Part shown: piece by piece, positions 35,607-40,014 of the stretch | Layout: each line of letters starts with the position of its first letter | Position numbering within the stretch: position 1 is the stretch's first letter | Assembly: GCA_005883575.1 (NCBI GenBank) | Contig: VBFH01000029.1 | Location: 1 to 64,000, forward strand | DNA length: 64,000 bases | Source: Chloroflexota bacterium | GTDB lineage: Bacteria; Chloroflexota; Dormibacteria; Dormibacterales; Dormibacteraceae | Reading direction: 5' to 3' | The notes under the pieces: generated by a model | What the model saw: only the letters and a program-made list of their open reading frames with translations | Told to the model about the DNA's origin: nothing | The model's database searches: none | Program-made: the position numbers and the translations under genes

Positions 35607-38150
35607 TCAGCCTGTGTTCTGCAGGCCGGCCGCTACTCCGTTCACGCTCAGCTGAAAGACCCGCTCCGCCCTCGCGCGGTCGGAGCGCGGCGTCCTGCGC
35701 TCGCGCATCGCGCGCAGCGCCCGCAGCTGCAGGTGCGACAACGCGTCGACGTATGGATTGCGCAGCTCGATCGCCCAGGAAAGGACACGGCGATCCTCAA
35801 GCAGCCGGCGATGCCCGGTCACGGCGAGGACGCGGTCCAAGGTGAGTTCGTACTCGCGCAGCAGCATCTCCTCGAGGTCTGGCCGCTCGCCCAGGGCAAG
35901 GTAGCGTTCGGCGATCCGGCGGTCGGTCTTGGCCAGGCTCATCTCTGCGTTGTCGAGCATCGCGTTGAACAGCGGCCACTCCGCGTAGGCGCGTCTCAGC
36001 TCACGGAGCGGCGCCGCGGCGAGCCCGCTCCCGATCCCGTACCAGCCCGGAAGGTTGAGACGCATCTGCGACCAGGCGAACACCCAGGGGATCGCCCTCA
36101 AGTCGTCGAGCCGGCCGCCGACCCTGCGCCGCGCCGGCCTCGAAGCGATCCTCAGGCGGCCGAGCTCTTCAACCGGGCTCACCTGGAGGAACCAATTCTC
36201 GAAGCCCGGCGCTTCGACCAGCTTGCGGTACGCGGAGCGCGACGGCGCGTCGATGAGCGAGGCAAGCCGGCGAAATCCACGTGCTGGATCGCGTCGGGTG
36301 GCTCCAGGCGCCGATGCCTCGAGCACCGCGGACGTCACCTGCTCGAGGTGGCGGCGAGCGATCGCGCGGTTGCCGTAGCGGGCGAAGATCACCTCGCCCT
36401 GCTCGGTGACCTTGAAGACGCCGCCGACCGAACCGGGCGCCTGTGCGCGCACCGCGCGGTTGGCCGGACCGCCGCCCCTGCCCAGCGCGCCGCCGCGTCC
36501 ATGGAACAGTGTCAGTCGCAAGCCATTCTTCTTCGCCCATGCGGTGAGCGCGGCCTGCGCGTCATGGAGCGCCAGCGTTGCGGACAGCGGCCCGATCTCC
36601 TTGGCAGAGTCGGAGTAGCCGAGCATGACCTCGATCCTTTGGCCATTGGCGGCGAGACGTTTGCGGACGGGCTTGAGCCGCAGCATCTCGTCCAGGACTT
36701 CGGTCGCGCGCGCAAGGTCGTCGAGCGTCTCGAACAGCGGCACAACATCGAGCACCGGGACCCGGCCGCCGGTGGCATGACGCGCAAGCTGGTAGACCGC
36801 TGCTATGTCGCTCGCCCCACGCGTAAAGCTGACCACGTATCGGCGGCAGCACTCGACGCCGTACGTTGACTGAAGGGCCGCCACCACCCCGAGTGTGTCG
36901 AGCACATCCCGAGTCGGCTCCGACAACTGACCGCCGCCGCGGATCTCGATCAGCGCCCGCTCGTGCACGTTGCTGTGCTGCCGGACCTCGAGCTCCGCCA
37001 GGTGAAAACCAAAGGTCTGCGCCTGCCACACCAGGTGCTGCAGCTCGCCGGACGCGAGGCGAGGGGCGCCGGCGGCGGCGAGCGAATCCTGCACCGCGCG
37101 CAGGTCGTCGAGCAGCTCCGCAGCGGTTTGGTATGCGAGGTCCTTCTCACCCAGGCGCGTCGCGCGGATCCGGCGCACGACGTGAAGCAGAAACTCCCGG
37201 TGTGGCTCGGACGAGGTCTCAGGCAGTCGCTGCCGCAGCGCGCGCGACGGTGGTGTCGTCTCGGAATCGACGGTCATCGCGCGGCCCACCCGATTGGTCA
37301 CGGCCTCGAGCGCGAGCAGCGCGTGCTCCGCGTGGATCGCCATCGTCTCCGCCGTAACCTGGGGCGTGACAGCTGGGTTGCCGTCGCGATCGCCTCCGAT
37401 CCAGCTCCCGAAGCGAAGGAATGCAGGCGCGCGGGTTCCGAGGGCGGTGTCGAGGGCACGCAAGACCTCGGGCACCATGCGGAACAGCGTCTCGTCGAAG
37501 ACGGCCATGAACGACCGCACCTCGTCCAACGGCCGGACGTGCGCAGTGCGCATCTGGGCTGTGCGCCACAGAGTGTCGATCTCTTCGCCGAGCCGCCGCT
37601 GCGCCTCCGCCCGCTCGGAGTCCGAGATCTTCGGATCGTCGATCGCCTCGAGCTGCTCGCCGATCCGCCGAATCGCGGTCACAACCGCGCGGCGCCTCGC
37701 CTCCGTCGGATGCGCCGTGAAGACAGGATGGATCTCCAGGGTCGCGAGCAGAGCGTCAAGCCTCTTCCTGCCCACTTTGGTCCGCAGCTCGGCGACGGTC
37801 GCCGCGATTGACTCCGGAAGCGGCTCCGGTCCCCGATCGCGATCCCGGATAACCCGGGCGCGATGGTGCTCTTCGGCCAGGTTCGCGAGGTGGAAGTAGC
37901 AGGTGAAGGCCCGAGCCACGAGCTCGGCACGGTCAAGAGGCCACGAGGCGACGAGCTTCTCGGCCTCGCGCTCGAAGCGACCGTCCTCACGCGCCCGGAT
38001 CGCCAGACCGCGCAGCTTCTCCACGTCATGCAGGAGACTCGCGCCGCCGAAGTCGGCGATGACGTTGCCCAGCAGCTCCCCGAGCAGCCGCACGTCGCGC
38101 CTCAGCTCCGGCGGTATCTCCTGTCGGGCAGCGTCTCTCGACTGCCCCAT
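35607..38150 (-). CDS. ppc: phosphoenolpyruvate carboxylase
   Basis: The 847-residue protein is of normal bacterial length. The catalytic His is in FTAHPTEARRR, the Lys in LGYSDSAKEIG, and the glycine/arginine loop is FHGRGGALGRGGGP. The signature C-terminal QNTG is intact. It carboxylates PEP to oxaloacetate. It lies 12 bases downstream of cimA on the same strand, so the isoleucine attenuator before cimA probably controls it too. Confidence 0.95.
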   Translation of the reverse strand: MGQSRDAARQEIPPELRRDVRLLGELLGNVIADFGGASLLHDVEKLRGLAIRAREDGRFEREAEKLVASWPLDRAELVARAFTCYFHLANLAEEHHRARVIRDRDRGPEPLPESIAATVAELRTKVGRKRLDALLATLEIHPVFTAHPTEARRRAVVTAIRRIGEQLEAIDDPKISDSERAEAQRRLGEEIDTLWRTAQMRTAHVRPLDEVRSFMAVFDETLFRMVPEVLRALDTALGTRAPAFLRFGSWIGGDRDGNPAVTPQVTAETMAIHAEHALLALEAVTNRVGRAMTVDSETTPPSRALRQRLPETSSEPHREFLLHVVRRIRATRLGEKDLAYQTAAELLDDLRAVQDSLAAAGAPRLASGELQHLVWQAQTFGFHLAELEVRQHSNVHERALIEIRGGGQLSEPTRDVLDTLGVVAALQSTYGVECCRRYVVSFTRGASDIAAVYQLARHATGGRVPVLDVVPLFETLDDLARATEVLDEMLRLKPVRKRLAANGQRIEVMLGYSDSAKEIGPLSATLALHDAQAALTAWAKKNGLRLTLFHGRGGALGRGGGPANRAVRAQAPGSVGGVFKVTEQGEVIFARYGNRAIARRHLEQVTSAVLEASAPGATRRDPARGFRRLASLIDAPSRSAYRKLVEAPGFENWFLQVSPVEELGRLRIASRPARRRVGGRLDDLRAIPWVFAWSQMRLNLPGWYGIGSGLAAAPLRELRRAYAEWPLFNAMLDNAEMSLAKTDRRIAERYLALGERPDLEEMLLREYELTLDRVLAVTGHRRLLEDRRVLSWAIELRNPYVDALSHLQLRALRAMRERRTPRSDRARAERVFQLSVNGVAAGLQNTG

Positions 38151-38162
38151 CAGGCCGGTTCG

Positions 38163-39770
38163 CTACGCGAGCAGGCCGACTTCCCCGCGAGTGGGGAAGA
38201 GGACGGCAAACTCGAGCGAGTCGATCAGGGCGAGCAGCGACGCCTCGATGATGTTGCTCGAACAGCCCACGGTCGTCCAGCGCGCGGTGCCCTTACCGCT
38301 TTCGATCAGGACGCGCGTGGTCGCGGCTGTGCCGGCGTCGCCGTTGAGGATGCGCACCTTGTAATCGTGCAAGCTCACGCCGTCGAGCGCGGGGAACTGC
38401 GGAGTCAGCGCCTTGCGCAGCGCCGCATCGAGCGCGTTGACCGGGCCGTTTCCCGACGCGGCGGTGTGATAGACCGCGCCTTCGACCTCGACCTTGACCG
38501 TCGCCTCGGCGTGAACCGATCCACCGTTCTTGCGCACCTGGGTGGTGAAATCGGCCACCGTCCATGGCGCCGCGTACCCGGGCTGAAGCCGCCGCACGAG
38601 CATCTCAAACGACGCGTCCGCCGCCTCGTACGCGTATCCCTGGTGCTCCAGCTCCTTGAGGTGGTTCACGAGCCACCGCGTCTGCGGGTCGTCACGGTCG
38701 AGCTCGAGCCCGAACTCTCGCGCCTTCGCCAAAACGTTGCCGCGCCCAGAGAGCTCAGACACGAGCACGCGCGCCTCGTTTCCCACCCGGGCCGGATCGA
38801 TGTGCTGATAAGCATCCTTGTGCCGCAGGACTGCGGCCACGTGCTGCCCGCCCTTGTGCGCGAAAGCGCCGTGGCCGACGAACGGCTGCTGCAGCGGCAG
38901 CGCGAGGTTGGCGATCTCTGCCACCGTGCGCGAAAGCTCAGTGAACCGCTGCACCGACCCCTGGGGGAGTGCCTCGATGTCGAGCTTGAGCACGAGGTTC
39001 GAGATCACAGACACAAGGTTGGCGTTGCCGCAGCGCTCGCCATAGCCGTTGATGGTGCCCTGGACCATGTCCGCGCCGCCCATCACCCCTTCCAGCGTGT
39101 TCGCGACCGCAAGCTCGCAATCGTTGTGCGTGTGGATGCCCACGCGCGTTGAGGCCCCGGCATGGGCCAGCGCCGACCTCACCGCCTCGACGCCAGAGCG
39201 GATCTCAGCAGGCTGGCTGCCGCCGTTGGTGTCGCACAGGACCACCCATGCGGCGCCCGCGCGCGACGCGGAAAGGCAGACCTCGAGTGCGTACTCGGCG
39301 TCCCGCGCGTACCCGTCAAAGAAATGCTCCGCGTCAAAGATGACCTCGCGGCCGAGGTCGACTCCGTACGCGACCGACTCCTCGACCATGGCGAGGTTTT
39401 CGTTGTTCGTCGTCTGTAGGACCGTCGCCACCTGCCAGGTGTCGCTCTTGCCGACGAGCGTCCAAACGGGCGCCTTGCTCGCGATCAGCGCATCCAGATT
39501 CGGGTCGTCCTCACAGCGTCCGCCGGCGCGGCGCGTGGCGCCGAACGCGGCCAGGCGCGCGCTCTCGAGCGGCTGCTTCGCAAGGCTCGTGAAAAGCTCC
39601 TCGTCTTTCGGGTTGGAGCCGGGAAATCCACCTTCGACGTAGTCGAAGCCGAGGCCGTCCAGGAGGCGCGCGATGCGCTCTTTGTCCGCGGCAGAGAAGG
39701 AGACGTCCGGGCCCTGCGCGCCGTCCCGCAGGGTGGTGTCGTAGACGACGATTCTTCTTTTGGCGGACAT
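38163..39770 (-). CDS. cimA: (R)-citramalate synthase
   Basis: The 535-residue HMGL-like enzyme has VYDTTLRDGAQGPDVSFS, VGIHTHNDCELAVAN, and the C-terminal LeuA-type regulatory domain (SGNGPVNALDAALRKALT, YKVRILNGDAGTAATTRV). The PDVSF variant after RDGAQ and the overall form match TIGR00977 citramalate synthases rather than 2-isopropylmalate synthase. It condenses pyruvate and acetyl-CoA to citramalate for isoleucine. ATG 39770 directly follows a terminator T-run on the minus strand, which marks attenuation control. Confidence 0.92.
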   Translation of the reverse strand: MSAKRRIVVYDTTLRDGAQGPDVSFSAADKERIARLLDGLGFDYVEGGFPGSNPKDEELFTSLAKQPLESARLAAFGATRRAGGRCEDDPNLDALIASKAPVWTLVGKSDTWQVATVLQTTNNENLAMVEESVAYGVDLGREVIFDAEHFFDGYARDAEYALEVCLSASRAGAAWVVLCDTNGGSQPAEIRSGVEAVRSALAHAGASTRVGIHTHNDCELAVANTLEGVMGGADMVQGTINGYGERCGNANLVSVISNLVLKLDIEALPQGSVQRFTELSRTVAEIANLALPLQQPFVGHGAFAHKGGQHVAAVLRHKDAYQHIDPARVGNEARVLVSELSGRGNVLAKAREFGLELDRDDPQTRWLVNHLKELEHQGYAYEAADASFEMLVRRLQPGYAAPWTVADFTTQVRKNGGSVHAEATVKVEVEGAVYHTAASGNGPVNALDAALRKALTPQFPALDGVSLHDYKVRILNGDAGTAATTRVLIESGKGTARWTTVGCSSNIIEASLLALIDSLEFAVLFPTRGEVGLLA

Positions 39771-39802
39771 AAAAAAACCTCCCGACCTTCTGGCCGGGAG
39801 GT
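39771..39802 (-). terminator. intrinsic terminator of the cimA leader (attenuator)
   Basis: On the minus strand ACCTCCCGGCC pairs with GGTCGGGAGGT (11 bp, one G-U) around AGAA, followed at once by seven Ts. The ATG of cimA comes immediately after the T-run. A strong terminator between promoter and gene is meaningful only as an attenuator. Confidence 0.85.
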
Positions 39803-39844
39803 CCAACCGACATAAGCGCGGCGCGCTACGTCGGGGGACCTCCC
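39796..39844 (-). promoter_or_regulatory. antiterminator of the cimA leader
   Basis: GGGAGGTCC (39844-39836) is exactly complementary to GGACCTCCC (39804-39796). The latter overlaps the ascending arm of the terminator, so the two folds exclude each other. Between the arms, CCGAC/GTCGG and AGCGC/GCGCT form an inner stem that extends the antiterminator. Confidence 0.75.
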
Positions 39845-39882
39845 CGGATAATCTCGATGGCGATCGCGCGGCGATTGCGCAT
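39826..39882 (-). CDS. isoleucine-rich leader peptide of cimA
   Basis: An 18-codon frame on the minus strand encodes MRNRRAIAIEIIRGGPPT. Four of its codons are Ile (two ATC, then ATT and ATC), at codons 7, 9, 11 and 12. Its stop TAG lies eight bases past the 5' arm of the antiterminator. Stalling at the first Ile codons would leave that arm free, while a ribosome reaching the stop would cover it. TAGGCT (39897-39892) nine bases upstream could start a nearly leaderless transcript. Confidence 0.7.
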   Translation of the reverse strand: MRNRRAIAIEIIRGGPPT

Positions 39883-40014
39883 GTGGCCGCAAGCCTAAGG
39901 CATCGCGGACGCGGCATGCATGGTCTTGGGCACCAAGCACGGGTCTGGCCGTTAGTGGCACACCGACAGCCGCGGTGTGGCGGCAGGAGTTCGCCGTGCT
40001 GTGGAATCTTTCTC

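Follow-up and report, generated by a model that had tools for sequence, protein, structure and literature searches.

The region upstream of the cimA–ppc gene pair is very probably a ribosome-mediated transcription attenuator. It would respond to charged tRNA-Ile and govern cimA and, together with it, ppc. The whole stretch of DNA that was analysed (64,000 nucleotides, referred to as the window) belongs to contig C24 of a draft genome of 3.6 Mb. As far as the sequence itself can show, the anatomy of the leader is confirmed throughout, and the following features were annotated:

39920..39936, minus strand: conserved TTGG-N9-CCAT box where a -35 element would be expected, a possible activator site (alignment of 28 leaders)
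39892..39897, minus strand: -10-like box TAGGCT, separated by 9 bases from the leader ATG (TANNNT conserved)
39826..39882, minus strand: leader frame MRNRRAIAIEIIRGGPPT*, 18 codons, with Ile codons 7, 9, 11 and 12 (translation and alignment of 28 leaders)
39836..39844, minus strand: antiterminator, outer 5' arm (folding and paired cells)
39832..39846, minus strand: small hairpin CGGGG/CCCCG in codons 13-17, a possible competitor of the antiterminator (paired cells)
39807..39834, minus strand: antiterminator, inner stem-loop containing the leader stop codon (folding and paired cells)
39796..39804, minus strand: antiterminator, outer 3' arm, overlapping the terminator 5' arm (folding and paired cells)
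39777..39802, minus strand: terminator hairpin of 11 bp, with GGAGG, the cimA Shine-Dalgarno site, in its 3' arm (folding)
39771..39777, minus strand: seven-T run of the terminator (T7-ATG in 28 of 28 leaders)
38163..39770, minus strand: cimA, citramalate synthase, 535 aa (TIGR00977, 641.6 bits, cut-off 450)
35607..38150, minus strand: ppc, phosphoenolpyruvate carboxylase (Pfam PF00311, 794.5 bits)

The TIGR00977 score agrees with the preliminary description of this DNA, according to which cimA opens an isoleucine pathway, and the distance of 12 bases between the cimA stop and the ppc start is also as described there. The ppc product scored 766 bits against NCBIfam NF000584, slightly below the cut-off of 815. 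The citramalate route consumes pyruvate and acetyl-CoA, and PEP carboxylase supplies oxaloacetate. On the minus strand, the cimA ATG (39770-39768) directly follows the T run (39777-39771). The next gene upstream of cimA encodes a MIP-family channel and has the opposite orientation; no gene reading toward cimA from upstream was found in the window.

The translation of the leader frame gave the tiny peptide with four Ile in eighteen codons that had been noticed before, that is, the clustered end-product codons by which attenuators are recognized. The antiterminator 5' arm consists of the last leader codons and its outer 3' arm (GGACCUCCC) overlaps the beginning of the 11-bp terminator; the two hairpins are mutually exclusive. 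The 59-nt antiterminator segment has a folding energy of -38.3 kcal/mol (z -4.63, a value equalled by 0 of 200 shuffles), and the terminator (arms 39802-39792 and 39787-39777) reaches -23.7 kcal/mol (z -5.18, 0 of 200 shuffles). The long antiterminator and the succession of an 11-bp terminator, seven Ts and the cimA ATG claimed earlier are confirmed. The terminator was also recovered by a consensus scan, which found 5 terminator-like sites in a stretch of 2.5 kb against 1.7 expected and is weak evidence when taken alone. For the small hairpin, 94.3% of cells were paired (-9.6 kcal/mol, z -1.0), with 0 cells changed on both sides in the 28 leaders; being weak alone, its role as an antiterminator competitor is kept as a mere possibility.

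To define the distribution of the leader, 42 genomes of the family were used, and cimA was counted as present when the CimA protein query matched at E <= 1e-60, which was the case in 29 of them. The leader element was detected with an RNA model in all 29 cimA-bearing genomes and in none of the other 13, where the matches to 28 of the 29 are by construction since the model was built from them. Independently of the model, each of these 28 leaders was recognized in the DNA preceding cimA. In the 29th genome (G004), the leader was located by the RNA model on a separate contig beside a front piece of cimA. One of the 13 genomes without a cimA match (G034) has a 52-residue cimA fragment. The leader of L003, the family's one named relative (Chloroflexi MAG, isolate CF_54), is identical to that of L108 and was excluded from the counts as a duplicate. 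The pattern CCTCCC-N(8-26)-GGAGGT7ATG was found once each in 36 of the 110 class genomes, and its reversed version was never found.

Each of the 28 leaders contains 3 to 6 Ile codons. Counted from the stop codon, Ile occupies position -8 in 28, position -10 in 26 and position -12 in 24 of the 28 leaders; at position -7, it is found in 5. The Ile codon at -12 is ATC in 15 leaders and ATT in 9, and the third position of this codon is twice as variable as the first two. Leader lengths of 17, 18, 19, 20, 28 and 29 codons were recorded, and the frame was kept throughout, running from a start (ATG in 21 leaders, GTG in 7) near the -10-like box to a stop whose place is fixed by the hairpins. Conservation of the leader and of its Ile codons in relatives had been named as a check in the preliminary description, and missing conservation of leader frame or stems as a refutation; both are present, the isoleucine being retained through synonymous change, and the refutation did not materialize. 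The invariant codon at -8 (39852-39850 in the window) is ATT in 27 of the 28 leaders, and ATC predominates at the other Ile positions. In L101 and L110, in-frame insertions of about 30 bases share a 21-base word. This word (CGCCGGGCGCGCGCAGGGCGC) is a dispersed repeat that is present in 34 of the 42 family genomes, with up to 33 copies in one genome when one mismatch is allowed; the reversed control gave one match overall. It is located inside the leader peptides of two species (L101:1209-1353 and L110:1620-1771), in different frames, and also near the cimA start in a third species (G015). The flanks of ten copies had little in common beyond the word itself.

The stems were analyzed in the same alignment. 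The outer antiterminator stem had 98.8% of cells paired in the 28 leaders, and the terminator had 95.5% (94.5% in the 43 sequences described below). At least one terminator mismatch was found in 12 of the 28 leaders, including all seven g10 and g12 leaders, at one position. Covariation within the 28 cimA leaders was nearly absent (changes on both sides in 0 antiterminator and 2 terminator cells) because sequence variation is too low. The DNA before the TTGG box has diverged to a mean pairwise identity of 0.43, against 0.63 for the 5' part of the leader and 0.857 for the hairpin part, which has thus stayed much more alike. When 15 leaders of a sister family (f2) were added to give 43 sequences, changes on both sides that preserve pairs were found in 11 terminator and 32 antiterminator cells, a level reached by 0 of 500 shuffles, with family-wide changes counted many times in these cells and hence not independent events. 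Slid controls were also lower by this measure. A measure counting pairs instead of cells was not above shuffles in the 43 sequences (70 and 359 of 500). Thus, the covarying stems proposed as a further check were found across two families by cells, but hardly at all within the cimA set.

Of the 27 relatives with enough downstream DNA, 23 have ppc next to cimA in the same orientation, a count from which L110 and L111 were left out as having too little DNA. The gene was not found within 1.5 kb of cimA in L096, L098, L099 and L100 (genera g9 and g11). The suggestion that ppc shares the isoleucine control fits those relatives in which it adjoins cimA and fails for the other four; such control would be common in the family, but not universal. 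As for the rival isoleucine route, no threonine deaminase reached the TIGR01127 cut-off in the 42 family genomes, among the matches listed. Matches extending to profile position 359 or beyond were found, again among those listed, in G022, G026, G039, G040 and G041, and all five genomes are without cimA, a distribution that is suggestive only.

Upstream of the leader frame, all 28 leaders carry TTG[GT] at a distance of 52-56 bases from the leader start and TANNNT at a distance of 7-12 bases. The latter spacing leaves no space for a Shine-Dalgarno sequence between the transcription start and the leader start codon, and GAGG was found between the -10-like box and the leader start in 1 of 28 leaders, where it overlaps the -10 box. 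The position of this box allows us to assume that the leader frame is probably leaderless. The conserved promoter-like parts reach approximately 39936, beyond the range covered by the preliminary description, and a transcription start below 39830, the other refuting condition named there, is made less likely by the conserved -10-like box (39897-39892). The same TANNNT spacing precedes the 15 f2 leaders, a count that is not independent, as the spacing was the condition for choosing their start codon.

In order to estimate the effect of ribosome position, the transcript was folded as it is before synthesis of the terminator 3' arm, minus everything up to the ribosome edge, which was assumed to be 9, 11 or 13 bases beyond the first base of the waiting codon. 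With the ribosome waiting at positions -14 to -10, the antiterminator captured CCUCCC in 28 of 28 leaders at all three edges. At -8 (codon 11), capture was found in 28, 6 and 2 of the 28 leaders depending on the edge, and at -7 (codon 12) in 7, 2 and 2. From -7 through the stop codon, CCUCCC was mostly free (0 to 9 of 28 leaders above one half). In these models of the truncated transcript, and in them only, the control codons permit the antiterminator and the stop position blocks it: the first two control codons would be clearly productive and the third borderline, and the sole Ile codon without exception in the 28 leaders (-8) is also the one with the least clear productive effect. The earlier statement that a ribosome at the stop covers the antiterminator arm is in line with these folds. 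The accompanying caution, that stalling at codons 11-12 would also cover the arm, was right and can be sharpened, since codon 12 mostly blocks, codon 11 depends on the edge, and codons 7 and 9 permit capture. CCUCCC was captured by the antiterminator in 28 of 28 leaders without a ribosome as well, and for this reason the leader was not assigned to the trp-type attenuator subtype; in the trp attenuator, the antiterminator does not form without a ribosome, its arm being sequestered by another hairpin so that termination follows.

No switch was apparent when the complete leader was folded at equilibrium. The terminator of the window dominated at nearly all ribosome positions (probability 0.98 with the ribosome at -12), and the means over the 28 leaders were 0.64-0.80 with the ribosome at -12 and -10. 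Equilibrium folding was set aside as a measure of the switch, as the terminator wins almost whatever the ribosome position. Since the equilibrium favours the terminator, the antiterminator must form first, during transcription, and attenuators of such a type generally depend on co-transcriptional order.

The proposed mechanism is as follows. RNA polymerase would start a few bases from the leader AUG, and a ribosome would enter the leader frame at once. When charged tRNA-Ile is plentiful, the ribosome would get to the stop codon and cover the antiterminator 5' arm, the terminator would fold, and transcription would end in the U run before the cimA AUG. When isoleucine is short, the ribosome would wait at the first Ile codons (-12 and -10 from the stop), the antiterminator would capture CCUCCC and transcription would continue; the freed GGAGG would then serve as the ribosome site of cimA.

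This GGAGG is located seven bases from the cimA ATG in the terminator 3' arm, it is kept in 28 of 28 leaders, and no other Shine-Dalgarno candidate was found between it and the ATG. Such an arrangement would also suit a switch acting on translation, in which the hairpin 39802-39777 hides GGAGG, the alternative hairpin frees it when the leader ribosome waits at the Ile codons, and the T run is incidental. We consider this improbable, because in every one of the 28 leaders the GC-rich stem of 11 bp runs directly into exactly seven Ts, which is needed by an intrinsic terminator and not by a purely translational switch. The transcriptional and translational layers may also operate together.

The TTGG-N9-CCAT box, conserved in 28 of 28 leaders, could instead bind a protein that controls cimA, with the hairpin being an ordinary terminator or part of a conserved untranslated region and the Ile frame being due to chance or vestigial. 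There is a precedent in the ilvB leader of Streptomyces coelicolor, where, according to the published study (PMC1262725), changing the supposed control codons left regulation unaltered. However, a plain terminator would stop cimA only, since no upstream gene reads toward cimA in the window; the leader frame and its Ile codons have outlasted changes in length and synonymous change; and the sister family f2 keeps the scaffold with different codons that fit the product. Thus, this explanation appears very unlikely. Elements that sense isoleucine or tRNA-Ile directly, riboswitch or T-box, control isoleucine genes in other phyla, but such a reading has a negligible probability here, as neither any Rfam family nor the T-box covariance model matched anywhere in the window at the gathering score, approximately 110 nt are too short for a T-box, and conservation is confined to a reading frame and a pair of hairpins.

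The ribosome-mediated attenuator was also sought outside the family. The class has 35 further cimA loci (E <= 1e-60), of which 33, from families f2 and f3, were examined with upstream DNA; G052 and G069 were left out as matches without a gene start, and L223, which is not cimA, was not counted. An Ile leader with a terminator before cimA was found in 0 of these 33 loci, and the same detector recovered 28 of 28 known leaders as a control. A loose filter applied to 80 named loci passed four. Of these, L003 has the same leader as L108; the Ile run of L007 was rejected, as it looks like the tail of an upstream coding frame, presumably leuD; and L026 and L078 gave no match in an Rfam scan. As far as tested, the cimA version of the attenuator appears to be confined to one family. 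An RNA model based on both families (R2) matched 23 of 400 phylum genomes, 20 of them in the class. The three matches outside the class (G245, G331 and G367) are weak and were not counted: the match in G245 is an unrelated aromatic leader, and those in G331 and G367, of which G331 alone was inspected, cover a shortened stretch. The leader of G245 (L250:319-390) encodes the Phe/Tyr-rich MPRFFWGYYYFTFSRHPGGLGMA* and has a terminator behind it; the start of the following frame resembles what we take to be DAHP synthase.

The model built from the cimA leaders only (R1) matched 15 of 68 other class genomes, all from the family f2, with E values of 2.5e-10 to 7.8e-4. The common scaffold consists of a probably leaderless frame ending in -GGxxT*, an antiterminator, a terminator with the Shine-Dalgarno sequence in its 3' arm, a T run and ATG. 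In 14 of the 15 cases, the scaffold directly precedes a thrC-like gene (L153-L160 and L162-L167; for example, L153:309-395). Two of the encoded proteins were scanned and gave 264.9 and 264.7 bits with TIGR00260 (cut-off 167.1), and a thrC match above the cut-off was found beside the element in at least 10 of the 14 genomes. These leaders contain MIM or MMM followed by a -RGGFRT*-like end: Met is found at -8 and -10 in 14 of 14 (L161 being counted apart), and position -9 is Ile in 8 and Met in 6. In both genomes examined, htpX follows the thrC-like gene. The leader of the fifteenth scaffold (G046) is MCSTRIRGIVGPGGSRT*, and it precedes a gene whose product of 85 residues matches an IlvM model below threshold (E 0.019), and then ilvB (TIGR00118, 627.9 bits). 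In folds of the f2 leaders, a ribosome waiting at -14 to -10 allowed capture of CCUCCC in 15 of 15; release at the stop was less clean (8, 9 and 8 of 15 above one half). The last control codon is at -8 in all versions of the scaffold, and in each of three versions the codons agree with the product of the gene behind them, namely Ile before cimA, Met before the Met-linked gene and Ile/Val before ilvB.

The same frame, spacing to the stop and ends make it likely that the Ile and Met scaffolds are homologous. The shared need for GGAGG as both a hairpin arm and a ribosome site could have made unrelated leaders converge, but the ilvB leader of the window genome uses other hairpins, and so a likeness of scaffold is not automatic. 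This leader (MTASARLTDLVLSLLGLIGIRMGARAT*; L238:3250-3415, minus strand, contig C81) contains Leu, Ile and Val codons, has a -10-like TAAGAT 10 bases upstream and a strong terminator, and was not matched by R1. The window genome would then have a candidate mixed branched-chain attenuator before ilvB besides the Ile-only one before cimA.

Among the matches listed, most class genomes have two genes of the thrC family. In the family f4, ten SAM riboswitches (RF00162), namely those with both coordinates listed from 13 f4 genomes with SAM matches, precede the lower-scoring paralogue, at 223-295 bases from the point where its match to the thrC model begins (an example is L246:461-563, minus strand; the genomes are among G093-G109). 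If about 70 residues precede the thrC model, the riboswitch is just before the start codon of the paralogue. This suggests a role in the methionine pathway for a gene annotated as threonine synthase. MetX was found in 1 of 110 class genomes by a search for MetX alone, in which the control was detected in only 6 of 14 genomes, none above the cut-off. In PMC12172450, MetM is described as a Streptomyces homocysteine synthase with a SAM riboswitch before its gene and with relatives that include proteins annotated as ThrC. With this precedent, the Met codons of the f2 leaders make sense, and it supports, by analogy, the assumption that the regulated amino acid can be told from the codons. On balance, we incline to the view that one inherited scaffold was re-used with swapped codons (Ile for cimA–ppc, Met for the thrC paralogue, and Ile/Val for the ilvM-like gene and ilvB) and that the Met/SAM-linked paralogue is of the MetM type. 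If so, the Met scaffold and the SAM riboswitch would indicate that this paralogue makes homocysteine from O-phosphohomoserine, in a class that is almost devoid of the usual MetX.

The attenuator would place citramalate synthase, the entry of the threonine-independent isoleucine route, under a codon-reading switch in a little-studied phylum, and in most relatives it would tie PEP carboxylase to the same isoleucine signal. The comparison across families indicates that the specificity of the switch can be read from a few codons and was apparently changed by them. The codon rule thereby becomes testable, and it provides a regulatory argument for the function of the second annotated threonine synthase.

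A search of open full-text papers revealed no report of a cimA attenuator, nothing relevant on leader peptides of Chloroflexi or Chloroflexota and nothing related to Met-codon leaders. A paper from 2010 (PMC2965389) describes leader-peptide systems as unproven outside Proteobacteria and Actinobacteria before its own example from Firmicutes. The mechanism proposed here is of a known kind, and the gene, the phylum and the codon swap appear to be new. The trp, his, thr and ilvGMEDA leaders of enteric bacteria are ribosome-mediated transcription attenuators. The cimA leader resembles them in having codons of the product, a mutually exclusive antiterminator and terminator, a U run and a predicted dependence on ribosome position. 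It differs from them in its target, cimA–ppc, in its Chloroflexota host family, in the overlap of the frame with the antiterminator arm, in the terminator arm that doubles as a Shine-Dalgarno site, and in lacking an obvious hairpin by which termination would be imposed when no ribosome is present. The candidate leaders before ilvB in Actinobacteria (PMC1262725) also combine branched-chain codons with terminators, but their codons are mixed (Ile/Val/Leu) and their mode is uncertain, whereas the cimA leader has Ile alone. The LEU element before leuA of Actinobacteria, described in the same paper, likewise has a leader frame and a pairing that involves the Shine-Dalgarno sequence; it is, however, a pseudoknot with Leu codons, in contrast to the antiterminator/terminator pair of the cimA leader. 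Finally, the SAM riboswitch of the family f4 is found where f2 has the Met-codon scaffold, in front of a paralogue of the same kind, but it binds a metabolite and operates without a leader peptide.
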